NCBI GenBank assembly: GCA_025358515.1
Contig: JANYJG010000216.1
Coordinates: 1-35,938 of the forward strand
DNA: 35,938 bases
DNA from: Chloroflexota bacterium
Lineage (GTDB): Bacteria > Chloroflexota > Limnocylindria > Limnocylindrales > CSP1-4
Reading direction: 5' to 3'
The position numbers were made by a program, and so were the translations under genes. Position 1 is the first letter of the stretch. Each line of letters starts with the position of its first letter. Under the pieces are notes generated by a model. That model saw only the letters and a program-made list of their open reading frames with translations. It did not search any database and was not told the DNA's origin. Below, in pieces: positions 20,928 to 34,708 of this stretch.

Positions 20928-23900
20928 TCAACCGCGCCGCGTGCCGGAATAGCCGAGGGCTCGCACGCCATCCGGGCGCGCCGGGCCGCCGGGGCTCTCC
21001 GCGACCTCGGGCAGCGGCCTGATGTCACGGGCGATGACGTTGACCACGTTCGCCTCGCGCTGGAGCGTCCCCTCCACGTAAAGCAGCGCGTGGCGCCTCA
21101 CCACTCCCCGCAGCCGCGCCCAGGCGTCCGGCCAGAGAGTGACGTTGACCATGCCGGTCTCATCCTCCAGAGCCAGGAAGACCGTACCGCGGGCCGTCAT
21201 CGGGTGCTGGCGGGTGACGACCAGGCCACCTAGCCGCACGGAACCCGGGGCACGATCAGCCAGCGATGCGTTCGTCACCGCACCGAGCCGCTCGAGAGCG
21301 GGCCTGAATAGCGATATCACCTGGCGCCGAGCGTCCAGCGATAGCACCGCATACGAGTCGCCGAGCCGCTCGCGTTCGGTCAGGGGCGGCAACTGGGGAA
21401 CGGAAGTCGGGGGCAGCCGCAGGTCCAAAGGCCGCCCGGCGGCGCACCCGTACCGCCCGGCTGCGCGCCGCTTGGTGCCGCTCGCCGGGCTGCTCGCCGT
21501 GCCGCTCATCACACCTCCGGCCCTCCCTCCGGCCCTCCCTCGCGTCGCGCCCATGACCTCCCGAAGCTGCCACAGCAGTTCGCGCCGAGGCCGGCCGAGC
21601 GAGTCGAGCGCTCCGGCTCGAATCATTCGTTCGACCACTTCTTCGGGCAGCTCCGTCCGCGCCACCACGTCCGCGAGCGTGGCATATGGACCGCGCCCCA
21701 GTTCGGTGTCCAGCCTTTCGGCATGTTCCTCGCCGATCCCCTTGACGAGCGCCAGTCCCAGCCTGATCGCGTAGCCGGTCGCCGATTCGGGCGTCAAGCG
21801 GTCGCGCGAAGCCTTCGACGGCACGATGCAACCGGACGATCGAATGGTCGCCTGCCGGCCTGGCCCGACCCATTCGGTCGTCGTCTTGTACTCCGACGCG
21901 TTGACGTCCACCGGCAGGACCGCGACCCCGTGGCGCTTGGCGTCGTTGATCAGGACCTCCACCGGGTAGAAGCCCATCGGCTGGGCGTTGATCAACCCAA
22001 CCGTGAACTGGGCCGGGTAGAAGAGCTTGAGAAAGGCCGATTCGTAGGCCGTCCGAGCAAATGCTGCGGCGTGGCTCTTGGCGAATCCGAACGAGGCGAA
22101 GGCGGCGACCCGGCGAAACAGCTCCTCGGCCTGCTCGTCGGTCAGGTCGTTGGTGACGCGGCAGCCTTCGACAAAGCGCAGGTGGAGCTTCTCCATCTCC
22201 TTGCTGGAGCGCCAAGTCCCCATAGCCCGGCGGAATCCGTCCGACTCGCCCGCCGAGAAACCGGCCACGGTGATGGCGATCTGCATTACCTGCTCCTGGT
22301 ACAGGATCACGCCCAGGGTTTCGCGCAGGATCGGCTCCATGCTCGGGTGGAGGTAGGTCGTTGGCTCGAGGCCCTGGCGGCGGCGCAGATATGGGTGGAC
22401 GGCATTGCCCTGGATCGGGCCGGGCCGGATAATCGCGACCTCCACCACCAGGTCGTCCAGGTTGGCCGGCTTGGACTTGGGCAGGGTCTGCATCTGGGCC
22501 CGGCTCTCGACCTGGAAGACGCCCACGGTGTCGGCGGCCTGGAGCATGGCGAAAACCTCCGGCACGTCCTCCGGCAGTCGATCGAGATCGACGCAGGCGC
22601 CGCAGTCGTGCTCGATCAGCTGGAGCGTCTCGTCGATGGCGGCCAGCATGCCCAGGCCGAGCAGGTCGAGCTTGATCAGCTTCATCGTCTCGACATCGCG
22701 CTTGTCGAACTGCACGACGACGCGGTCGGGCATGGTTGCCCGCTCCAGCGGGGCGATATCGATCAACGGCGCCGCGGTCACGAGCATGCCGCCGGTGTGG
22801 ATCGAAAGGTGCCGGGGCAGGCCGTCGATGCGGGCACAAAACTCGAGCCAGCGCTCCCAGTCCGGCATGTTGCGGGTGGAGCTGGGCGGTGGGAACGGTG
22901 CCGGCGCGGCCGAGGGCGCCGCCGTCGGGGCCGAAGCCGTGCCCGAAGCCGCACCCGCCGACCTCTGCTTTGTCAGCCAGGCCACGCTCGCCGCGGAGTC
23001 GCCGGGACCACCTTTGCCATCCGGGCCACCCCGGGCTACGTTGAGGCGGCCCATGCCGTCGACCAAGCCGCGGGCCATCGCAACCTCGGCCGCGCCACTC
23101 GCCATGCCGCCCCTCGCCCCGGCCGCGCCACCCCCCATGCCGCCACTCGCCGCCGTCTCGCGCTCGACCGTCTCGGCGAAGAACTGGCCGAAGCCACCGT
23201 CCGCCTCCAGATCGCGCCGGACCATCACCGAGTCGTACGTTTCTAGCGCCTTGGCAACCCGATCGACAAGAGGCCTCGGGAATCCCAGCGCGTACCCGAC
23301 CTCCCGAACCGCGGAGCGAGCCCGATACGTGACCAGGTTGCAGACCATGCCCGTGTGCTCGGGGCCGTAGCGCGCATAGACGTACTGGATCACCTCCTCC
23401 CGTCGTGCCGAGGAGAAGTCGATATCGACGTCCGGGTAGCTCGTTCGACCCTCGTTGATGAACCGTTCAAAGAGCAGGTGGTGGCGGATCGGATCGACGC
23501 GAGTGATACCCAGGACGTAGGCGACGATCGAATCGGCCGCGCTGCCCCGGCCCTGAGCCGGAATGCCGCGCTCTTTGGCGAACCGCATCAGATCCCAGCA
23601 GATCAGGAAGAACTCGGCCAGGCCGGTCCGTTCGATGACATCGAGTTCGTGGGCCAGCTGGCGCACGACCGGTGACGAGATCGGGTGGTAGCGGCGGCGG
23701 GCGCCGTCGTGACATAGCTCCTCCAGATACGAATAGGGCGTATTGCCCTTCGGGACCGTGAAGCCTGGAAAGCGATAGCGCTCGAAGCCAAGGTCAACCG
23801 AGCAGCTGGCGGCCAACTCACCGGAGTTGCCGATTCCCTCAACCCAGGCCGACCTCATTCGAGAGTCGGCCTGCGAGTCCTCCGCAGTCGCGCCGCCCAC

Positions 23901-24875
23901 AGGCGCGACGCCTGCGGGTGGCAGGGCCATCAACTCATCAGCCGACTTCAGGTACGACTCACCGTCCGGGCGCCGAAGGTTGCGCAGCTGATCGAGGGAC
24001 CGGCCGTGGCGAATCGCCGTCAGGACATCGTGGAGTTCCCGGCCTTCGGGACGTGCATAGTGGACATCGTTCGTGACCAGGACCGGCAGCCCCAACTCGT
24101 CGGCGAGCAGCGCGGTTTCGGCCACGAGCCAGTCGTCGTCGGGGAGTAGATGGTGCTGCAACTCCAGGAAGAACGCGGCAGTGGCAATGGCGTCGCGGCG
24201 CGGCCCTCTGCCGGCGAACATCAGCGAGTACCGTTCCGCCGCGGCTCGCGCCCCTTCCCGATCGCCGACTCGAAGGCGTCTGGCGATTTCGCCTTCCCGG
24301 CACCCGGAGAGAGCCACCAGGCCTTCCGTGTGCTCCGCCAAAAGCTCCTGAGTGAAGCGCGGCATCGACTTCGTGCCGGCCAGGTTCGCTCGGCTGATCA
24401 GCCGGCACAGGCTCCGGTAGCCGGCCGCGTTGCGAGCCAGCAGCACGAGATGCGGGCCGCGTTGCGCCTCCCCCACCCCTCGCAGATCCTCCTTGATGGC
24501 ATCGCGGTGGCCGGGCAGGCGAGCCCGGGCTGGGCGCGGCCGAGCCGGCAGCCCCTCGCCGCCCGGCGCGTCACCGGGGAGCAGCGAGCCCACCGCCAGA
24601 ACGCGGCCCCTCGCACGACGCGCCGGAACAACGACTCCCGCAAGATCGGGCACCGTCGCGTCCAGCAGTTCGATCTCGACCCCCACGATCGGGCGCACCC
24701 CGGCTTCCTGCATCGCGGTCGCAAAGCGAACCACGCCGTAGAGGCCCCCGTGATCCGTGACCGCAAGACCGGATAGCCCCAGTTCCACGGCGCGTTCGGC
24801 CAGCTCGTCCGGCGTCGAAGCGCCGTCGAGGAACGAGAAGCTGGTGTGACAGTGAAGCTCGGCGTAGGCGGCCAA
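20928..24875 (-). CDS. dnaE2: Error-prone DNA polymerase DnaE2 (ImuC), DnaE-like C-family polymerase
   Basis: PHP domain YAELHCHTSFSFLDGASTPDELAERAVELGLSGLAVTDHGGLYG; FVRFINEGRTSYPDVDIDFSS-like polymerase motif; YQEQVMQIAITVAGFSAGESDGFRRAMG; C-terminal OB fold. TTG start; SOS box upstream. Confidence 0.93.
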   Translation of the reverse strand: MAAYAELHCHTSFSFLDGASTPDELAERAVELGLSGLAVTDHGGLYGVVRFATAMQEAGVRPIVGVEIELLDATVPDLAGVVVPARRARGRVLAVGSLLPGDAPGGEGLPARPRPARARLPGHRDAIKEDLRGVGEAQRGPHLVLLARNAAGYRSLCRLISRANLAGTKSMPRFTQELLAEHTEGLVALSGCREGEIARRLRVGDREGARAAAERYSLMFAGRGPRRDAIATAAFFLELQHHLLPDDDWLVAETALLADELGLPVLVTNDVHYARPEGRELHDVLTAIRHGRSLDQLRNLRRPDGESYLKSADELMALPPAGVAPVGGATAEDSQADSRMRSAWVEGIGNSGELAASCSVDLGFERYRFPGFTVPKGNTPYSYLEELCHDGARRRYHPISSPVVRQLAHELDVIERTGLAEFFLICWDLMRFAKERGIPAQGRGSAADSIVAYVLGITRVDPIRHHLLFERFINEGRTSYPDVDIDFSSARREEVIQYVYARYGPEHTGMVCNLVTYRARSAVREVGYALGFPRPLVDRVAKALETYDSVMVRRDLEADGGFGQFFAETVERETAASGGMGGGAAGARGGMASGAAEVAMARGLVDGMGRLNVARGGPDGKGGPGDSAASVAWLTKQRSAGAASGTASAPTAAPSAAPAPFPPPSSTRNMPDWERWLEFCARIDGLPRHLSIHTGGMLVTAAPLIDIAPLERATMPDRVVVQFDKRDVETMKLIKLDLLGLGMLAAIDETLQLIEHDCGACVDLDRLPEDVPEVFAMLQAADTVGVFQVESRAQMQTLPKSKPANLDDLVVEVAIIRPGPIQGNAVHPYLRRRQGLEPTTYLHPSMEPILRETLGVILYQEQVMQIAITVAGFSAGESDGFRRAMGTWRSSKEMEKLHLRFVEGCRVTNDLTDEQAEELFRRVAAFASFGFAKSHAAAFARTAYESAFLKLFYPAQFTVGLINAQPMGFYPVEVLINDAKRHGVAVLPVDVNASEYKTTTEWVGPGRQATIRSSGCIVPSKASRDRLTPESATGYAIRLGLALVKGIGEEHAERLDTELGRGPYATLADVVARTELPEEVVERMIRAGALDSLGRPRRELLWQLREVMGATRGRAGGRAGGVMSGTASSPASGTKRRAAGRYGCAAGRPLDLRLPPTSVPQLPPLTERERLGDSYAVLSLDARRQVISLFRPALERLGAVTNASLADRAPGSVRLGGLVVTRQHPMTARGTVFLALEDETGMVNVTLWPDAWARLRGVVRRHALLYVEGTLQREANVVNVIARDIRPLPEVAESPGGPARPDGVRALGYSGTRRG

Positions 24876-24904
24876 CTGCGCCCTCGGTAGTCGGTTGGCG
24901 GCTT

Positions 24905-24925
24905 AGTATAGAACAGTTGTTCTAT
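24905..24925 (-). promoter_or_regulatory. LexA (SOS) box overlapping the dnaE2 promoter
   Basis: ATAGAACA-GT-TGTTCTAT at 24908-24925 contains GAAC-N4-GTTC; on the minus strand GTTC is followed directly by a -10-like TATACT (24910-24905). Confidence 0.88.
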
Positions 24926-24974
24926 CTAGTACGAAACCGCCGAGCAACCGCCCGCCGCGTCCAGAAGCCGCCTC

Positions 24975-27620
24975 TCACGCGCCGGCGTCGTTCCTGCGGC
25001 CTCTTCGCCACACCCAGAAGACCATGACTCCCACGACCAATAAAACCGGCACGAGGATGAGGGCTCTCTGATCTGGCGATCCGTCGTCCTTCGGTGCCGG
25101 GGCGGCCGGCGGCGCGACCGAACTCTTGTGCTGCTCCTGATCCACGAAAGCCGTGACCCAGGCCAGGGGGGCGTTCCAGTTGATCGCGACCTCGTTCGTT
25201 GAGAACGAGGCGATATCGTCCACGTACGACTTGCCTTCGGGGTTGCCCGTCAGACCTGCAGCCAGCGTGGCCGGGTCGCTGGGCATGTCGTTGGGGCCGC
25301 CGGCCACTACACCGGGCGGAGGAGTTGGATAGCCTTCATCGACTCGGCCGGCCCAGAAACGGTGGTGCGGGTGCTGTACCGGGTTCGTGCCGTAGCCGGT
25401 GATGTAACTCTTGTTCAAGGGGTTGCGACCGAGCACGTAGTCCAGGGCCTGGGCGGCCCCGTCCAAATATTTGCGGTCACCGCTGAATTGGTAAGACAGG
25501 CCCATCAGCATGGCCGAGTTCAGAACCTCGGAATTGGAGCCCCACACGAAGTTGGCCACCGGCACGCCATAGCCCTGCCTGCCGGCGAAACCCAGCCTCC
25601 GGTCGGCCATGTCGAGGATCGCCTGACGGGCGGCCTGCACCTTATCGGCGGGCAGCTTGTTGGGGATGACGGCCAGCGAAATGGTTCCCAGCCCGGCCGT
25701 GCTGCCCCAGCTTGGAACCATGCCCGAGGCCCAGTCTGGCGAGGCGAGCAGGTAGTCTTTGTAGGTGTCATTGCCGGTGGTCACGAACAACTCGGAGGCC
25801 GCCCAGTAGAACTCGTCGTCAACCTTGGTGTCGGAGTAATCGCCACCGCCGGCGGCGAATGGGACGGCATAGACGCTCGGGTTAGCCTTGGCGGCGGCCC
25901 AGGCGGTCTCGGCGGCGGTCAGGCATTTCGCCGAGAAGGCCGGGTCGATCGTCTTCCAGATGCGGGCACACTGCGCCCCCACTGCGGCCAGGTTAAGCGT
26001 CGCGGCCGTGGACGGCGGGAATAGGTAGCGGTTGGTAGCCTGCGTGGGTGGCATCGACGGCAAGGAGCTCCACACATCGTCGTGCACCTTGTGGTGGACC
26101 ATGCCCGCCTGGGGCTTGCCGGCAGGCACCTGCATGCCCAGCATGAACGTCAGCTCCCAGCGGGCCTCGTCGAGGATGTCAGACACGCCGTTCTTGTTCT
26201 CGGGGATGTTGAGCGTGCCATCAGCGAAGGCCTTCGGGTTGCGTTCGTACTCGTTCATGAGGGTCCAGACCGAGATTCCGCCATTGACGACGTACTTCCC
26301 GTAATCCCCGGCGTCGTACCAACCGCCGGACACGTTTAGCGAGTAGTCGCAGCCCGGCCAGACCTTGCCGTTCGTGTCAACGCCCTTGTAGCAGGTCACG
26401 CTGCTGTCGCTGAGGTGGCCGGCAACTCGAGCCCATTGGGCGCCGGCGTACTGAGCCGTCAGGTCGATGCCGCTGCGGCTGCGGTAGTAATAGGCCAGGG
26501 CGTCCTTCTCGAGGCTCGAATAGAGGTCGGCGGAGATCTTGAACGGATCGCTGGCGACGGCACCCACGTGCAGGGTGTAGCCGGTACCGGGCGTGGTGTA
26601 GGCAGAGAAATCGATTAGATGGACGCGGCTGCCTGAGGCGGGGTCAACCCCAAAAATCGTCGTCTGGCCGGTCGCCACCTGCTGTCCGGCGCCATTTAGC
26701 AGCTTCCACGTCTGCGGCGAGGTATCGGCCAAGGCATAGGAAGCGATCTTGGGTCCGGACGGGTAGTAGCCCACCTGGTTGACGCTCACCTGCGGTGGTG
26801 CGGGCGGGGGCGGCGGCGTGGGTGTAGGCGCCAGGCGGCCGGGAGTTGGGACCGCGCTTGCCCCGACCTTGAAGAAGATGGCCGTGCCGAAGACGCTGGG
26901 GTCTTGATAGGAAATATTTGTGACGTCGGCTTTCGACCAGGCCAGCTGCACGTCTCGATCGAGTACGGAGGCGCCGTTGAGTTGCGCCTGGAAACCGATC
27001 TCGAGGCCAGGGGCAGGCACCACGCCCAGGTCCGCCAGCGGTACGGCGGCTTCGAAGCCCCAGCCCTTCGGGTCTCCTTGGGTCTTGAAGACCAGGCCGC
27101 GGACATGGATCTTCTCGCTGTTTACGCCGGTGAGAATGAGCCCGTTGGGGTCCTTCTTGCCGATGTCCGCGGCGTTGATGTTGATCTGGTAGACGCCTTT
27201 GTAGCTCTTGGTGTTCAGGTTGCCGGTGGTGTTGAGAAAGAACTCCATCGAGTCTTCGTTCCAGAAGGCCCCGGCGTGCTTGCCGGCGATGATTGTCTTG
27301 TCGACGGCAGACATGGTGATGTAGAAGTTGGCCTGATCCGCGGCCACTGAAAAGCTGAACTGTCCATCCTCCAGGAAGTTGGAGGAGGTCTTGGGGCCGT
27401 AGTCGACGACTTGGACGGGTACGCCGGCCCAATCGTTGAGCTTGCCATCGATCTTGATGGCGACGTTGTAAGGGATGTAAACGGCCATGCCGTCGATTTG
27501 GGGCGGAGCCAGCGGCTTCACATCTTTGGCGGCGGCCAGCCCGGTCGGTCCGGTCAGCGCAAAGGCCACACCGCTTAGCAAAAGGGCCACCAACGAGATG
27601 GCCGAGAATCGTCTGGGCAC
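24975..27620 (-). CDS. Membrane-anchored GH9 family glycoside hydrolase (endoglucanase-like) with N-terminal CBM9-like domain
   Basis: Signal peptide; CBM9-like IKIDGKLNDWAGVPVQVVDYG...FWNEDSMEFFLN; Pro linker; CelD-type Ig-like region; GH9 GGWYDAGDYGKYVVNGG, HPHHRFWAGRVDEGYP, STNEVAINWNAPLAW; C-terminal TM LILVPVLLVVGVMVFWVWRRGRR. Confidence 0.92.
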   Translation of the reverse strand: MPRRFSAISLVALLLSGVAFALTGPTGLAAAKDVKPLAPPQIDGMAVYIPYNVAIKIDGKLNDWAGVPVQVVDYGPKTSSNFLEDGQFSFSVAADQANFYITMSAVDKTIIAGKHAGAFWNEDSMEFFLNTTGNLNTKSYKGVYQININAADIGKKDPNGLILTGVNSEKIHVRGLVFKTQGDPKGWGFEAAVPLADLGVVPAPGLEIGFQAQLNGASVLDRDVQLAWSKADVTNISYQDPSVFGTAIFFKVGASAVPTPGRLAPTPTPPPPPAPPQVSVNQVGYYPSGPKIASYALADTSPQTWKLLNGAGQQVATGQTTIFGVDPASGSRVHLIDFSAYTTPGTGYTLHVGAVASDPFKISADLYSSLEKDALAYYYRSRSGIDLTAQYAGAQWARVAGHLSDSSVTCYKGVDTNGKVWPGCDYSLNVSGGWYDAGDYGKYVVNGGISVWTLMNEYERNPKAFADGTLNIPENKNGVSDILDEARWELTFMLGMQVPAGKPQAGMVHHKVHDDVWSSLPSMPPTQATNRYLFPPSTAATLNLAAVGAQCARIWKTIDPAFSAKCLTAAETAWAAAKANPSVYAVPFAAGGGDYSDTKVDDEFYWAASELFVTTGNDTYKDYLLASPDWASGMVPSWGSTAGLGTISLAVIPNKLPADKVQAARQAILDMADRRLGFAGRQGYGVPVANFVWGSNSEVLNSAMLMGLSYQFSGDRKYLDGAAQALDYVLGRNPLNKSYITGYGTNPVQHPHHRFWAGRVDEGYPTPPPGVVAGGPNDMPSDPATLAAGLTGNPEGKSYVDDIASFSTNEVAINWNAPLAWVTAFVDQEQHKSSVAPPAAPAPKDDGSPDQRALILVPVLLVVGVMVFWVWRRGRRNDAGA

Positions 27621-27830
27621 GTTCGCTCCCCTGGCAAGGAAAACTCGCGGACATGGCCCTCATTTTGAGCTGGGCCGGGGCCAATCCTACTCGCTTGAGA
27701 ATGTTCGGGGAGGCTCCCTCGGAGGCCCGCCGGATGCTGGTGGGCGCCTTGGCCGGGCCCCGGCCGCAACCGCCCGCGAGACCACTGGCGGCGCGCAACA
27801 CGCGACCGCGATTGTCCGTCAACAAAGGCG

Positions 27831-27953
27831 ATGACCAGCTGCCGCAACCTCGCATTCAGCGCCTTCCGGACCGCCCTGGCGGTAATGTTCGCGGCCCTGC
27901 TCATCCTCGTGGTCCTGCCGATGGCGGTCGCAGCCCAGGCATCGACCAACTAG
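27831..27953 (+). CDS. Putative 40-aa small membrane/secreted protein
   Basis: Manual translation MTSCRNLAFSAFRTALAVMFAALLILVVLPMAVAAQASTN; one hydrophobic helix, AxA-like site, purine-rich AAAGGCG just upstream. Not in ORF track. Confidence 0.4.
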   Translation: MTSCRNLAFSAFRTALAVMFAALLILVVLPMAVAAQASTN

Positions 27954-28055
27954 AGAAGTACACCTCGACGTCGCAATCGAGGACAGGGGCAACGGTTCGG
28001 TGTGGTGGCCGGAACGCTAGCCCGTCGAACGGCCCAGTGAGCTGGCCGCAAGACC

Positions 28056-28087
28056 ACAGAGCCCGCCGGTTTTCCGGCGGGCTCTGT
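28056..28087 (-). terminator. Hairpin terminator of imuA-imuB-DUF6504 operon
   Basis: ACAGAGCCCGCCGG-TTTT-CCGGCGGGCTCTGT, perfect 14-bp stem 16 nt beyond the DUF6504 stop. Confidence 0.75.
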
Positions 28088-28102
28088 CGATCTCAGGCGC
28101 AG

Positions 28103-28351
28103 TCAGTCGTATAGCCGCTCCAGGTGCCACGTCCCATCGGCCCGATCGATGTATAGCAGCGCCAGCCAGCGAGCCCCGGCAACCTTGAAGTAGTCGCGTT
28201 CGATCGGCCGGCTCCACCAACTCTCCTCGACGCGCCAACGGTTGCAGACCTCGATCTGTTCTCGTCGACCGTTCCAGCGGAAAGCAACCAGCGTCCCGGC
28301 CTGATCCAGTTCCACCTCTATCGAGGGATGCTCCCGCAGCAGCCGCGTCAT
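28103..28351 (-). CDS. DUF6504 family protein (ImuB-associated)
   Basis: 82 aa from the ATG overlapping the ImuB stop (ATGA): MTRLLREHPSIEVELDQAGTLVAFRWNGRREQIEVCNRWRVEESWWSRPIERDYFKVAGARWLALLYIDRADGTWHLERLYD. Confidence 0.82.
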   Translation of the reverse strand: MTRLLREHPSIEVELDQAGTLVAFRWNGRREQIEVCNRWRVEESWWSRPIERDYFKVAGARWLALLYIDRADGTWHLERLYD

Positions 28352-29700
28352 AGGGCAGAACCAGCGGCGCTGTCGCCCTTGGCTGCGGCTCCAGCGGCGC
28401 GTCCATCGGTTTGCCGCCGCCACGTCCATCGGGCTTCGGCGAGCGGCGCCTCCGTGTCCCCCAACTCCGCCCATCCGACCCGGCCCTCACCGAAGCGGAG
28501 CCCGAGTCTGGCGAGCTGCCAGCCAAGCCGGCCGGTCCGTCCGGTCTGGGGCGTGAAGAGAGTGAGCTGGCAGCCGGCAGCGGGCGCCACGTCGCCGAGT
28601 TGGAGGTCGAGGCGCGAGACCGGCGCTTGCGGCGGCGCCATCTCCAGCCGGGCGATTAGCAGGCGCTCTATGGCCAGCCCTTCCGACGTGGGCTCGGGCA
28701 GGAGCTGATCGATGACAAGTTGAGTCGGCCCCTCTCCGGCGACGAAGGTTCGATCCAGCTCCAGGGTCAATCTAGCGCGTGAGGTCGCGGCGCCGCGAGC
28801 CTGGAGTTGATCGCCGAAGGCGGCCGCTAGCCTATGCAGGACGAACCGGAGCCCCTCGACATCCGAGACCGGCGGATCAATGGGCAGTGCCAGCACCATC
28901 CGTTCCGGGGCGCGCCGCGGCCGGAACGGATTCGTTTCCTCGCCGCGAGCCCGGGCATGGAGCCGCTCGCCCTCCGGCCCGAACCGCGCCACCAGAGCGG
29001 AACGCGGTAGTTGGGCGACCTGGCCGATGGCCCTCAGTCCAAGCCTGTCGAGACGGGCGCGTATCTCCGGGTCGCGACTCAGCATGGCCGCGGAAAGCGG
29101 TGCCAGGAACTCGGCGTCCGCGCCCGGTGCCACGACATGCAGCAGAACGGCGCCGGCGGCGCTACCGGCCGAGCCGGCTCCGGGCGCGGCGACGGGCGCG
29201 CCGGGCACGGCGGCTGCGATCGAGGCCGCGACCGCGGCGGCAAATCGCGTCCCGCCGATCCCCGCCAACGGCCGCCCGGGCAGGACCCCCGCCAACGACT
29301 CGCCAACACGGGCAACGATCAGCGGCTCCGGCCCCCATAGCCGCTCAAGACCATCCAGCTGGACCTCGATCCGCCCGAACCCCGACCCGGCCGTCTCCGT
29401 CTCGGCGGCAATGCCCGGGCTGTAACCAGCCAGCAGATCTAGCGCCGCATCGAGCGCGGCCGCATCAGCTATCGGATCGGGATCGAGAAACCTGGCCTCC
29501 GGGGCGAGACGGTGAGCCGACCCAAGCGGCATCCCGACCCGAACTCCTAGCTCCAATGCCGATCGGCTCGCGTCCAGAACCAGGCCGTCCGACCAAGGCT
29601 TGCCGCCCAGCACGATCGGCTCTGCCGGGGAAGGGAAAGGCGATCGGCCTCGGGCCAGGCGGAGTAGAAGGTGCGGCCAGTAGAGATGGAGGAGTCGCAT
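28348..29700 (-). CDS. imuB: ImuB-like Y-family polymerase homologue
   Basis: MRLLHLYWPHLLLRLARGR...VLDASRSALELGVRVGMPLGSAHRLAPEARFLDPDP...LLAGYSPGIAAE; GLERLWGPEPLIVARV; little-finger-like C-terminus. Confidence 0.88.
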   Translation of the reverse strand: MRLLHLYWPHLLLRLARGRSPFPSPAEPIVLGGKPWSDGLVLDASRSALELGVRVGMPLGSAHRLAPEARFLDPDPIADAAALDAALDLLAGYSPGIAAETETAGSGFGRIEVQLDGLERLWGPEPLIVARVGESLAGVLPGRPLAGIGGTRFAAAVAASIAAAVPGAPVAAPGAGSAGSAAGAVLLHVVAPGADAEFLAPLSAAMLSRDPEIRARLDRLGLRAIGQVAQLPRSALVARFGPEGERLHARARGEETNPFRPRRAPERMVLALPIDPPVSDVEGLRFVLHRLAAAFGDQLQARGAATSRARLTLELDRTFVAGEGPTQLVIDQLLPEPTSEGLAIERLLIARLEMAPPQAPVSRLDLQLGDVAPAAGCQLTLFTPQTGRTGRLGWQLARLGLRFGEGRVGWAELGDTEAPLAEARWTWRRQTDGRAAGAAAKGDSAAGSAL

Positions 29701-30685
29701 CGACGGAGACCGGAGCATTGGGATGAGCGGAAAGCGGCGACGGCCGGACCGCAGACAAATGAGCGGCCGGACGTAAGAGGCCCGGCGGATGCAACCTCAC
29801 CGCCAACCTGCCCGGCGCCGACTCTCTCAGAAGCTCGTCTCGGGCCAGGCAAGCGTCCCGGGGGCCACCGTCCGCGTACAGAATTCGAAGCTCCGCGGCT
29901 CGACCCGGAGGCCCAAACCGGTCGCGCGAAACGCGGACCTCTGTCCGCTGGCCCACCACGTCACGCCCGAGCCTGATCCAGGCCCGACGGTTCAACTCCA
30001 GCCGCAGAGCGGCCTCCTGGGTCAGCGCGCCCAGGAGCGCGGCCGGCAGACCAGGCGGCTCCAGGACAAGCATCTGGACACCCGCCCGACGAGCCATCGC
30101 GGACAGCCTGTGGACCCGTTCGGCCAGACGAGCCGCGGAGACTCCCGCCGAATCCAGGGGCTTGTTCGGCAGATCGAACAGCAGCAAATCGACCGTTCGA
30201 TCCTGGAGTAGCATCGCGGCCATCGCCAGCGCCTCCGCAAGGGATTCCGGCATGAGGACGACCAGCCAGTCCAGCTGGACGCCTCTGGCTACCGCCTCTA
30301 CCGGGTCCAGACTCTTGGCGAGATCCAGGTACGCAACTATCCCGCCCAGCGCCTGAACCTGGGCGACGGCCTGCAGCGCAAGCGTGGTCTTGCCGCTCGT
30401 TCCATCGCCCTGGAGAGCCGTGGTTGCGGTCCGCGGAAAACCGCCTAGACCGAGGATCGAGTCGAGGGCGGTGAAGCCCGTTGGGATGGCCCTCTCGTCC
30501 GGCACGATCATTGGGCGAGCGGCCGGAGCGCCCATCCGCGAGACTGCCTGCTCGTCGTCCGGTTCCGGCTGCGGAGCCATTGCGAGAGCCCCGATAACCT
30601 CTCCGCCCCACCGCGGAGCTGCTCCACCCCAACGTCCCTGGAGGGACGTCAAAGCGGCCTGGACATTGGGGGAAGGGGTCTTCAT
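29465..30685 (-). CDS. imuA: ImuA-like RecA-fold protein; the C-terminal ~80 codons overlap imuB
   Basis: IPTGFTALDSILGLGGFPRTATTALQGDGTSGKTTLALQAVAQVQALGGIVAYLDLAKSLDPVEAVARGVQLDWLVVLMPESLAEALAMA: Walker A-like GDGTSGKTT in a RecA-like core, next to ImuB. Confidence 0.85.
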   Translation of the reverse strand: MKTPSPNVQAALTSLQGRWGGAAPRWGGEVIGALAMAPQPEPDDEQAVSRMGAPAARPMIVPDERAIPTGFTALDSILGLGGFPRTATTALQGDGTSGKTTLALQAVAQVQALGGIVAYLDLAKSLDPVEAVARGVQLDWLVVLMPESLAEALAMAAMLLQDRTVDLLLFDLPNKPLDSAGVSAARLAERVHRLSAMARRAGVQMLVLEPPGLPAALLGALTQEAALRLELNRRAWIRLGRDVVGQRTEVRVSRDRFGPPGRAAELRILYADGGPRDACLARDELLRESAPGRLAVRLHPPGLLRPAAHLSAVRPSPLSAHPNAPVSVDATPPSLLAAPSTPPGPRPIAFPFPGRADRAGRQALVGRPGSGREPIGIGARSSGRDAAWVGSPSRPGGQVSRSRSDS

Positions 30686-30888: not shown

Positions 30889-31090
30889 CTTCCCTCCGGT
30901 CAACCAACCGCGCCTCCTCCGCCGCCGCCGTTGGTTCTGGCGTGCCCGTCGCCGCCAAACCGGTGAGTGCTATCCGCGTCTTGAGCGCCCTCGCCGAGTC
31001 ACGCCCGCCGAGTGGCAATTCCGCGTCTGGTCCACGCCGTCGCAAGAGGAAGTCACCCGTTTTCGGCCGCCGCGTCTCTTAGTACGTAGG

Positions 31091-31606
31091 ATGGGAAACG
31101 TGGCTAAGCAGGATGCGTCGCTCGACCGATCCGACCAACGGGTCGCGGTCTTGGACATCGACGCGCTCGTGGCTCAACACGGCGCCCTGCTGCTGGCGCT
31201 GGCCCACGCCATCACACGGAACTGGTCGGAGGCGGAAGACCTCTATCAGTCCACCTTCGAGATCGCGCTACGCCACGCCGATCAACTTCGCGATCCTGCG
31301 GCTGCCAAGGCGTGGCTAGTTCGCATCGAGAGCCGAGAGGCTTTTCGCCTGAGGCGGCGCCTGAGGCGCTTCGTTTCCCTGGACGATCGCGTCGAGGAGT
31401 TGCGGGTCGACGGCGAGATGGGCATTTCGGTCGATCTGCGACGCGCCATCGCAGGTCTTCCGCCGAGGACACGGGCGGCACTACTGCTCCACCACTACAG
31501 CGGATTCTCGGTCGAGGAGACGGCTGGCGCGCTGGGCGTTAGTCCGAACACGGTGAAGACTCAGCTGCGCAAGGGCCTGGCCAGGGTCCGGGAGGAACTT
31601 CGATGA
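31091..31606 (+). CDS. ECF-type RNA polymerase sigma factor
   Basis: Region 2: ALLLALAHAITRNWSEAEDLYQSTFEIAL; region 4: AIAGLPPRTRAALLLHHYSGFSVEETAGALGVSPNTVKTQLRKGLARVREEL. Confidence 0.9.
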   Translation: MGNVAKQDASLDRSDQRVAVLDIDALVAQHGALLLALAHAITRNWSEAEDLYQSTFEIALRHADQLRDPAAAKAWLVRIESREAFRLRRRLRRFVSLDDRVEELRVDGEMGISVDLRRAIAGLPPRTRAALLLHHYSGFSVEETAGALGVSPNTVKTQLRKGLARVREELR

Positions 31607-32916
31607 AAGGCGATCGAACGCTTTCGGAAGAAGAGGCAATCGCGGCCGTACGCGGCTACTTCGAGCAGGAGCTGAGGGAAGCCGGCGCGCGGCGTGTAGC
31701 ACCGATGCGGACCGCCCGCCGGCCCCGCTCGGCGTCGCGAGGGATCGCGTCCCTGGCCATGCTCGCAATCGTGGTCGTGGTCGCGGCAATGGCACTGCGG
31801 ATCGGGGCGTTCGGCGTGGTCGTGAGTCCGATGGCTTCCGACACCGCGGCGCCCTCGACCCCAGCGAGCCCTTCGGCCAGCGGTCCCCAAACTCGTGACC
31901 TCCCTGGGTTGGTCAGTTTCTTCGGGTCGTCGGCGTGGATGCTGCTGGACAGCGGCCTTTCCGTGTCGGATGACGCCGGACGGACCTGGAGAACCTTGGA
32001 TCTTCCGAGCGGCGTCGCGTCCTCCGCGGTGGGAGTCGTTGCGATGGCCCCGGGCCGGCCCGTGTGGCTGGCCGTCCACTCCGGCGACGGCTACCGCCTG
32101 TATCGCAAGGCCAATGGCGCCGCCGCGTGGTCTAGCGTCCTGCTGACGCCATCCTGGGCTCTGTTGCCATCCACGAGCGGCACGGCGGACATGGTCAAGG
32201 TCACGCCGGGTCCCGGCGGCCTCGTCACCGTGGCGGAGACGATGAGCGGCGGATCAACGTCGGCAGTCACGTCCTTGTTCGTGTCCACAGACGATGGCAA
32301 GTCTTTCACGGAACACCCGCCGCGGTCGGGCAGCGTCGCGAACATGTACTGGGATTCGGTCACATTAGTCACGCCTCAGACCGGCGTGGTCATCGCCGGA
32401 CCGAGCACCTATCCCCATGTTTTCCTGCACACGTCCGACGGTGGGACCACCTGGTCCGAATCCAGAGTCTCCGGCTTGCCCGCGGCTCCCAATTACACGC
32501 CGGGGACGCCAATGCTGATCGGTTCGGACATCCAAGTTCCGGTCACGATCTGCGGAGCGGACTGCAACACGAGTACGTTCGTGCTGCTGGTCAGTCACGA
32601 TGGCGGCGCCACTTTCAGCCCCCAGGGGGTCGCGGTACCCGCTGGCGGGAACTCCGGCTCGCTCGGTCCGATCACCTGGGTGTGGACCGGCGGTGGCATC
32701 CTCCAGGAGACAACTGACGGCGGCCAGACCTGGACGGCTATCACCGCCGTGGGTCTGCCGATCAACGTTAGTTCGCTCGATCTGACCAGCCCGAGCAGTG
32801 CCACAGCGGTGATCGTCGATAGTGGCTGCGCCGGCTTCAAGACCGACTGCTTGTACCGCAATTACCTTGTCGGCACGACCGATGGTGGCCGAACCTGGGT
32901 CGAGTACAAACCGTAG
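31603..32916 (+). CDS. Single-pass membrane protein with extracytoplasmic Asp-box (BNR/YCF48-like) beta-propeller; putative ECF regulator
   Basis: ATGA overlap with the sigma gene; N-terminal ~48-aa soluble segment, TM SLAMLAIVVVVAAMALRIGAF, then repeats SDDAGRTW, STDDGKSF, TSDGGTTW, SHDGGATF, TTDGGQTW, TTDGGRTW. Confidence 0.82.
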   Translation: MKGDRTLSEEEAIAAVRGYFEQELREAGARRVAPMRTARRPRSASRGIASLAMLAIVVVVAAMALRIGAFGVVVSPMASDTAAPSTPASPSASGPQTRDLPGLVSFFGSSAWMLLDSGLSVSDDAGRTWRTLDLPSGVASSAVGVVAMAPGRPVWLAVHSGDGYRLYRKANGAAAWSSVLLTPSWALLPSTSGTADMVKVTPGPGGLVTVAETMSGGSTSAVTSLFVSTDDGKSFTEHPPRSGSVANMYWDSVTLVTPQTGVVIAGPSTYPHVFLHTSDGGTTWSESRVSGLPAAPNYTPGTPMLIGSDIQVPVTICGADCNTSTFVLLVSHDGGATFSPQGVAVPAGGNSGSLGPITWVWTGGGILQETTDGGQTWTAITAVGLPINVSSLDLTSPSSATAVIVDSGCAGFKTDCLYRNYLVGTTDGGRTWVEYKP

Positions 32917-32943: not shown

Positions 32944-33723
32944 CTAGACGGCCGGCGCGGTGACCTGGTTGGCCGAGTCGTTGATGTTGGTGATGTCGAA
33001 GCTCACCTGGAACACCGTCGTCTTGTTGGCGGCCTTGCCTACGATCGCAAGGCTCACCGGGTAGCCACCCTCCTTGGCGATCCAGACATCGACAGAACTG
33101 GTCGTCGCGCCCGTGGCCCCGAACGAAGCGGCCAGGTCGGCGGCCGCGGTCTGGCCAGCCGTGTAGTGGATCGCAGCGACGCCGTTCTTCTGTTCTTCAG
33201 CGACCTTGGTGTAGTTGGCGGCGTTGGAGGTATCGATGGCGGTGCCGAAGATCTTGGCCGGCGATAGAGCATCGCCAATGTCGGCGGCGGTGGCAGGCGT
33301 CTTGGTGAACGCGCCGACGCCGAAGAGGTCCGTGTACACAAAGCCGCCGATGCCAATCATGTGGGCGCCGGCGAAGTTGAGGTCATAGGCCTTGTTCGGC
33401 TTGACCAAAAACGTTCCGTCGATGTTGGCCGGCGTGTCGCTGGTGCCAGCACTTATGGGGGCCAGGAGGTCGCCCAATGTGCCGCCGAGGACCGTCATCT
33501 TCAACTTGTAGCTACTGATTCCGGCGAACTTCGAGCCCGTGCCGCCGAGGCCGCCGACGCCGCTATTCACGGGTCCGACCGCCGTGGAGGGCTGCTGATT
33601 GGCGCTGCTGGAGCCCGGAGTGGCAGAGTTGGTGCTGGTAGTGGTTCCGCAAGCCGCCGCAACGATGGCCGCGATAAAGAGCAGGACGAGGGGACCGCGC
33701 CCCTCATGGAATAATCGAATCAC
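32944..33723 (-). CDS. Lipoprotein, LppX/LprAFG-like fold (paralogue 1)
   Basis: GTG start after GGGAGG; lipobox-like IVAAACGTTTSTN; VDVWIAKEGGYPVSLAIVGKAANKTTVFQVSFDITNINDSANQVTAP. Confidence 0.8.
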   Translation of the reverse strand: MIRLFHEGRGPLVLLFIAAIVAAACGTTTSTNSATPGSSSANQQPSTAVGPVNSGVGGLGGTGSKFAGISSYKLKMTVLGGTLGDLLAPISAGTSDTPANIDGTFLVKPNKAYDLNFAGAHMIGIGGFVYTDLFGVGAFTKTPATAADIGDALSPAKIFGTAIDTSNAANYTKVAEEQKNGVAAIHYTAGQTAAADLAASFGATGATTSSVDVWIAKEGGYPVSLAIVGKAANKTTVFQVSFDITNINDSANQVTAPAV

Positions 33724-33901
33724 GACGACCTCCCGTGTCCCAGGCATGCGGACTCAGCGTGGTGAACGCGGCCCAACGGCGTCGCGGCCAAAGTATCACG
33801 AACCTTGTCCACGGACGCTCTGGCGCCGCGCCTTAACGATGTTGGGGTCCCGACCGGCGGCCGAGACCCCAACCAAAAGCCTGATACGAGGCCAAAGCTA
33901 G

Positions 33902-34708
33902 CTAGGGCAGGACGTTGGTAGGAACACTGACCTTATTGGAGGCGTCGTTGACGTTGGTGATGTCGTATGTCATCTGGAAGGAGACGGTGCCACCGCTGGT
34001 CTTGGCAAGGATTGCCGCGCTGACCGGGTAGCCGCCGTTCTTGGCGATCCAGATGTCACCCGTCCAGGTCGCGTCCGCGGGGACCTGCAGCGACGGGCCC
34101 ATGGCGGCGAAGGCCGAAGAGTTGGCCTGGTAGTGATCGGCGTCGAGGCCGTTCTTGTTCCCCGACCCAACCTTGCTGTAGTCGGACATGGAACCGAAGC
34201 TCGAGAACATCAACGATGGCGATAAGGAGTCGCCCACGCTCGTCCCGGAGGACGGGGACTTGCTGAAGCCGCCCATGCCCAGATCCGTGTAGTCGAAGCC
34301 ACCAACGGAGATCATGTGCATGGTGAGGATCTTGACGTCGGAGGCCTTCTCCGGCTTCACGGTGACCGTTCCACCAATCGAAAATGCCGCGCCTCCGCTA
34401 GCGCCCGCGCCCCCGAACATCGACAACATACTGCTGTAAGGGCCGCCCGCGAGGGTCATGCTGAACTTGTAGCTGTTGATGGTCGCAAACGCAGCCGCGG
34501 CGCCGGTCAGTGCGCCGGCGCCGCCGCCGCCGCCGCCCGGGGCGTTGCTGGCAACCGCACCGCCGCCCGGGGCGTTGCTGGCAGCCGAACCGTTGGCGCC
34601 GCCGGGCGCCGAGGTGCTTGAGTTGCCGGAGCAACCGGACAATGCGATCGCCGTGATCGCCGATAGCACTAGCAGAGTGCGACTCTGCCGCCGAACGGAC
34701 TGGAACAC
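33902..34708 (-). CDS. Lipoprotein, LppX/LprAFG-like fold (paralogue 2)
   Basis: Lipobox ITAIALSGCSGN; Gly/Ala/Pro linker; C-terminus GDIWIAKNGGYPVSAAILAKTSGGTVSFQMTYDITNVNDASNKVSVP closely matches paralogue 1. Confidence 0.82.
   Translation of the reverse strand: MFQSVRRQSRTLLVLSAITAIALSGCSGNSSTSAPGGANGSAASNAPGGGAVASNAPGGGGGGAGALTGAAAAFATINSYKFSMTLAGGPYSSMLSMFGGAGASGGAAFSIGGTVTVKPEKASDVKILTMHMISVGGFDYTDLGMGGFSKSPSSGTSVGDSLSPSLMFSSFGSMSDYSKVGSGNKNGLDADHYQANSSAFAAMGPSLQVPADATWTGDIWIAKNGGYPVSAAILAKTSGGTVSFQMTYDITNVNDASNKVSVPTNVLP

Follow-up and report, generated by a model that had tools for sequence, protein, structure and literature searches.

The window, 35,938 nucleotides in length, is contig C219 of the metagenome-assembled genome G000 (2.78 Mb, 264 contigs, 67% GC). 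Its forward strand carries a gene for an ECF sigma factor, P0001, followed directly by a gene for a membrane protein, P0002. P0001 (31091–31606, + strand) has 171 residues, with region 2 encoded at 31166–31369 and region 4 at 31433–31585; both are matched above cut-off by Pfam, Sigma70_r2 (PF04542) with 46.1 bits and Sigma70_r4_2 (PF08281) with 61.6 bits, and the NCBIfam sigma70-ECF model scores 69 bits (cut-off 42.9). ECF (group 4) sigma factors possess regions 2 and 4 only and are about 170–200 residues long, which is what was found for P0001. P0002 (31603–32916, + strand; 437 residues), a putative membrane anti-sigma factor and sensor, has a start codon that overlaps the stop codon of the sigma gene (ATGA). 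Orthologous pairs occur in genomes G017 and G005, with identities of 81% and 79% for the sigma factor and 69% and 55% for the partner.

Two other gene groups flank the operon. A mutasome-like cassette on the minus strand (20928–30685), comprising a DNA polymerase III alpha subunit of DnaE2 type, an ImuB-like Y-family protein (28348–29718) and a RecA-like ImuA (29465–30685), encloses a gene for a GH9 cellulase (24975–27620). Convergent with the sigma operon are two tandem paralogous lipoproteins of 267 and 268 residues (32944–34708, minus strand), which weakly resemble the SCO4651 lipoprotein family.

P0002 consists of a cytoplasmic N-terminus (residues 1–46; 31603–31740) with a predicted helix at residues 9–32 and an Arg-rich juxtamembrane segment, a single transmembrane (TM) helix (residues 47–65 by hydropathy; 31741–31797), an extracellular linker rich in Pro, Ser and Thr and of low pLDDT (residues 68–102; 31804–31908), and an extracellular Asp-box beta-propeller (residues 103–437; 31909–32913). 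The AlphaFold2 model, built with 39 sequences, has a mean pLDDT of 84.8 and places the TM helix at 49–67; the propeller (104–437) is modeled at a pLDDT of about 95, and its strands are predicted to form seven blades. The hallmark of Asp-box (BNR) propellers is a repeated S/T-x-D-x-G-x-T-W motif located where strand 3 of a blade turns into strand 4. In P0002 the strict pattern [ST]x[DN]xGx[TS][WF] occurs exactly six times, at residues 122, 228, 277, 331, 370 and 425 (starting at 31966, 32284, 32431, 32593, 32710 and 32875, + strand), compared with a mean of 0.007 and a maximum of 1 in 5000 shuffles of the protein. In the model, the box of blade 2 is degenerate (N171...W176) and those of the other six blades are canonical. 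Together with a PF02012 (BNR) score of 42.5 bits (cut-off 27) and the predicted strand order, these boxes place P0002 among the Asp-box propellers. The original prediction, made from the DNA alone, had described the ATGA overlap, one TM helix, a cytoplasmic N-terminus of about 48 residues, at least six Asp-boxes outside and no HxxxCxxC motif. All of this was borne out, with the N-terminus shortened to 46 residues and the propeller corrected to seven predicted blades.

The best structural matches found by Foldseek were Ycf48 (target TM-score up to 0.60), the Vps10 domain of sortilin, and GH74, at 11–16% sequence identity. The resemblance of the fold to GH74, sialidases and Ycf48 gives some weight to another reading of the locus, in which P0002 acts at the cell surface as an effector or receptor (an enzyme, assembly factor or adhesin) and is a mere target of the sigma factor with no part in regulating it. 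However, P0002 scores 23.7 bits against the NCBIfam Ycf48 equivalog PRK13684 (cut-off 326) and falls far under the NCBIfam glycosylhydrolase cut-offs, and the F/Y-R-I-P motif of sialidases (GH33) is missing, with no R-I-P anywhere in the translation.

The zinc-binding anti-sigma (ZAS) motif HxxxCxxC was sought in the cytoplasmic domain and is absent; the first Cys or His of P0002 is residue 159. Pfam searches returned no anti-sigma domain in P0002 and none in 24 partners. A class I anti-sigma domain has four helices and is longer than about 50 residues, and the N-terminus of P0002, with 46 residues and one predicted helix, is not of this kind. Its length fits class II (CnrY-like), in which two helices, rather than the one predicted here, wrap around sigma2 and sigma4. 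A profile search of the PDB with 15 related N-termini gave no match. With a profile built from paralogous partners, type A N-termini scored 7.3–8.7 bits against 0.8 for shuffles, but non-cognate N-termini reached 11; the profile fails to separate cognate from non-cognate N-termini, and we claim no specificity from it.

A candidate autoregulatory ECF-type promoter lies at 31050–31084 (+ strand), with AAGTCACCCGTTT at 31050–31062, 41 bases before the sigma start, and a -10-like CTCTTAGTA at 31076–31084. The 13-mer is identical in G000, G017 and G005, and similarity among the three upstream regions runs from it to the ATG and ends abruptly on its 5' side; the genes further upstream differ among the three genomes, with tRNA-Ala in this window. 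Each of these genomes has a single exact copy of AAGTCACCCGTTT, and three control genomes have none. The related pattern GTCACCCG-N17-CTCTGTA precedes four paralogous sigma operons. In ten genomes, GTCACCCG-N16/17-CTCT occurs eleven times, seven of them before such sigma genes, and the reversed control pattern three times. The element is in keeping with ECF autoregulation and a small regulon, and the transcript of the sigma gene would be nearly leaderless. We also considered that the conserved block, which is open in the sigma frame, might be coding. This was rejected, as that frame has no start codon in the block, the similarity breaks off at the 13-mer, and in the paralogues the motif lies at a greater distance upstream of the start. 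In another SigE-like subgroup, the sequence AGGGTCATCACG is conserved upstream of the sigma gene (L041, L044, L046, L049, L055 and L059) and the partners begin MKTD..GG; AGGGTCATCACG is possibly that subgroup's own promoter.

Linkage of propellers to sigma genes was examined with a profile of the partners, searched in the family, class and phylum, which yielded 75 propeller frames in the retrieved loci; P0002 as the sole query against the genome contigs had found no relatives. The original prediction proposed such a co-occurrence analysis, and had held that propellers generally unlinked to sigma genes would speak against it. Linkage turned out to follow the N-terminus. In Chloroflexota genomes, all 38 intact Asp-box propellers that have both a TM helix and a cytoplasmic N-terminus are directly preceded by an ECF gene. 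None of 31 related propellers is; these, mostly lipoproteins, begin with a signal peptide or lipoprotein signal or lack an N-terminus. In this comparison start codons were taken near the sigma stop for linked propellers and as the longest reading for unlinked ones, and most relatives come from one family and are not independent within it. The exact four-base overlap is seen in 33 of 39 linked pairs. At the contig-end locus L126 the end of a sigma gene is visible upstream of the propeller, and the propeller gene at L124 has an N-terminus of the usual type yet is frameshifted and has no sigma gene upstream. Since G000 contains only 23 Sigma70_r2 genes, chance adjacency to a sigma gene would be roughly 1%, and as judged by gene order the sigma/propeller pairing is beyond chance. 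Linked TM propellers occur in at least four Chloroflexota families (f1, f19, f21 and f22) and in one Bacillota MAG (L170, JAJYSJ010000059), where the TM protein has 11 Asp-boxes; this case likely represents independent origin or transfer. A scan with query A2 named 32 loci, L170 among them, nearly all of which are sigma-unlinked Asp-box proteins of other phyla, and a TM propeller of an Actinomycetes MAG (L176) has no sigma gene.

Short gene overlaps are common in bacterial operons, and the two genes might on that ground be uncoupled neighbors whose overlap is a by-product of a compact genome. We regard this as extremely improbable, because the pairing recurs with many types of sigma factor in all the lineages just named, the Bacillota MAG among them, and because it depends on the N-terminus. 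The same dependence bears on the mere-target reading. Homologues that are lipoproteins without a sigma gene do exist, as that reading would have it, but a mere target has no need of a cytoplasmic N-terminus that is found only beside sigma genes. Two of the lipoprotein propellers close to P0002 (L022:8542–9717 and L023:3280–4503) lie directly downstream of genes for sugar-type ABC importers, not of sigma genes, a context that may hint at a carbohydrate ligand.

Do the two parts of the partner have the same history? Across 40 pairs, similarity of the sigma factors correlates with similarity of the N-termini when the ectodomain is controlled for (partial rank correlation, rho, 0.52; Mantel p 0.001), and with similarity of the ectodomains when the N-terminus is controlled for (0.47), in part through shared ancestry. 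Individual pairs are discordant. In G005, upstream of the orthologous pair, the partner L021:12565–13935 has an ectodomain like that of P0002 (normalized score 0.64), but its N-terminus (0.08) and sigma factor (0.12) are unrelated to those of the pair in the window. Conversely, L135 resembles this L021 pair in sigma factor (0.88) and N-terminus (0.57) and has an unrelated ectodomain (0.07). Loci L111 and L112 are syntenic to L029 and lack one contiguous stretch, comprising the sigma gene and partner residues 1–33, while TM helix and propeller are kept. Repeated co-loss of sigma gene and N-terminus was considered for these two loci and dropped; they share a breakpoint at residue 34, and there was probably one event. 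Relative to L028, locus L027 (G014:C187) has a segment inserted into the partner gene past approximately residue 26. Next to the sigma gene, the old N-terminus now carries a new ectodomain, and behind it the old TM-propeller remains as an orphan; we read this as a natural ectodomain replacement.

In these discordant pairs and breakpoints, the N-terminus acts as a component of the sigma module and the ectodomain as a swappable piece, with recombination breakpoints placed by these alignments inside the partner gene. Such co-segregation is predicted for an anti-sigma factor with a sensor and not for a mere target gene, whose N-terminus would have no reason to switch with the sigma factor upon an ectodomain swap. 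TM-propellers without a sigma gene persist in L111, L112 and L113, which can be set to the credit of the mere-target reading; such ectodomains may have a role of their own, or may decay slowly. On balance we consider it unlikely that P0002 is merely a target of P0001.

The propeller is one sensor type among several. Most ECF genes of G000 have an overlapping single-TM partner, as do 25 of the 27 sigma genes of the genus that are nearest to P0001 (orthologues excluded); three of the G000 partners show HxxxCxxC. Behind short N-termini, the ectodomains that Pfam identifies in G000 include a kelch propeller (L223:979–2469), a solute-binding protein (L229:1525–3129), an NfeD-type membrane protease module (L222:2024–3613) and, on the partners at L217, L221 and L031, further Asp-box repeats. 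Since partners in the same genome carry these other ectodomains, the propeller is best seen as one sensor in a repertoire and is not what defines the system. The L031 locus (G000:C135, L031:7808–10104, minus strand) is a second, independent pair of ECF sigma factor and TM/Asp-box propeller, in which the sigma factor and the type of N-terminus (MNVPDLETRVRSYYERF...) differ from those of P0001 and P0002. A sigma factor and partner with a swappable receptor probably serve general environmental sensing in these bacteria.

Taken together, the operon probably encodes an ECF sigma factor and a non-zinc membrane anti-sigma factor with the propeller as its sensor, within a modular receptor repertoire. 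The features computed here are the architecture, the recurrent linkage, the module boundaries, the conserved promoter and the site-2 protease gene. P0002 has the general layout of membrane anti-sigma factors, being encoded directly downstream of a sigma gene and having a single TM helix and a cytoplasmic N-terminus. Sigma binding by the N-terminus, ligand sensing and proteolysis we infer by analogy. The original proposal of a non-canonical anti-sigma factor with a propeller ectodomain stands as the best reading. Following RsiV, CnrY and RseA, the short helical N-terminus would keep the sigma factor membrane-bound and inactive. Outside the cell, the propeller with its seven blades would act as the sensor; its ligand, seated on the propeller face or within the channel, is probably a peptide or glycan. 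Of the similar folds, Ycf48 and sortilin have peptide ligands and GH74 has xyloglucan. The GH9 cellulase gene lies near the operon but lacks the promoter motif, and as a pointer to the ligand it is at most a hint. Ligand binding would then expose the linker or TM helix to site-1 cleavage, and an RseP-type site-2 protease would free the N-terminal piece, both again on the model of RsiV, CnrY and RseA; the genome has M50 site-2 protease genes, including an RseP-like M50 match of 150.9 bits. The freed sigma factor would transcribe its own operon from GTCACCCG-N17-CTCT(N)GTA, and presumably a small regulon as well. The propeller would be one of several interchangeable ectodomains borne on sigma-specific N-termini in this lineage.

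One may ask whether the partner restrains the sigma factor or assists it. The sign of regulation does not follow from linkage, modularity or promoter data, and P0002 could in principle be a positive co-regulator, its N-terminus tethering or activating the sigma factor upon a signal. We think this quite improbable: RsiV, CnrY and RseA, the established cases with the same layout, are inhibitors, and a sigma gene translationally coupled to the gene behind it is a typical arrangement in sigma/anti-sigma pairs.

If the anti-sigma reading is right, a beta-propeller receptor joins the known anti-sigma sensors, and the natural swaps and deletions show that the sigma-binding and sensor pieces evolve separately, with a breakpoint between N-terminus and ectodomain. 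About 40 cognate pairs would be ready for study of the specificity of tiny non-zinc anti-sigma factors, and there would be a route to extracellular ligands in an abundant uncultivated lineage of soil and sediment. A broader suggestion, which has in our view slightly less than an even chance of being correct, is that this Chloroflexota family runs a plug-in receptor system in which ECF sigma factors take over a large share of the role that histidine kinases have elsewhere, short helical sigma-specific anti-sigma peptides being combined with ectodomains of unrelated fold (Asp-box, kelch, solute-binding, NfeD) swapped by recombination within the partner gene.

There are precedents for non-zinc membrane anti-sigma factors that sense through an ectodomain. 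One of the closest likenesses is to RsiV/sigma V of Bacillus subtilis and C. difficile, in which an ECF sigma factor is paired with a protein having a short cytosolic N-terminus that includes the sigma-binding part, one TM helix and an extracellular ligand-binding receptor domain, in an autoregulated operon; the anti-sigma factor is itself the receptor for lysozyme (PMC5014341). The RsiV ectodomain that binds lysozyme is DUF4163-DUF3298, whereas P0002 has no such Pfam match and has BNR/Asp-box repeats instead. The RsgI/SigI systems of Clostridium thermocellum are likewise sets of paralogous sigma/anti-sigma pairs with extracellular sensors that vary with the substrate and release by RseP (PMC12203970), but SigI is not an ECF sigma factor, and the N-terminal domain and carbohydrate-binding ectodomains of RsgI differ in fold from P0002. 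ECF57 sigma factors are also associated with propeller repeats, as WD40-like C-terminal extensions fused to the sigma factor itself (PMC8999054); P0002 is a separate membrane protein with an extracellular Asp-box propeller. Ycf48 and the sortilin Vps10 domain, with GH74 the nearest folds, are ligand-binding Asp-box propellers that function in photosystem assembly and eukaryotic sorting, respectively, without sigma linkage. In the open-access literature searched we found no description of anti-sigma factors with a BNR, Ycf48, kelch or propeller ectodomain, and the Asp-box propeller version thus appears to be undescribed there. The original suggestion of a new class is weakened in one respect, as a missing zinc motif is no novelty by itself: among anti-sigma domains of class I, about 44% are without it (PMC7406223, PMC4598750). 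The class II protein CnrY of Cupriavidus metallidurans, the partner of CnrH, is like P0002 a membrane protein with a very short non-zinc cytoplasmic domain, consisting of two helices only (PMC4598750, PMC7406223). CnrY differs in that sensing is done by a separate protein, CnrX, and no sequence similarity to P0002 was found. That the short N-termini described here form a new structural class is a real possibility.
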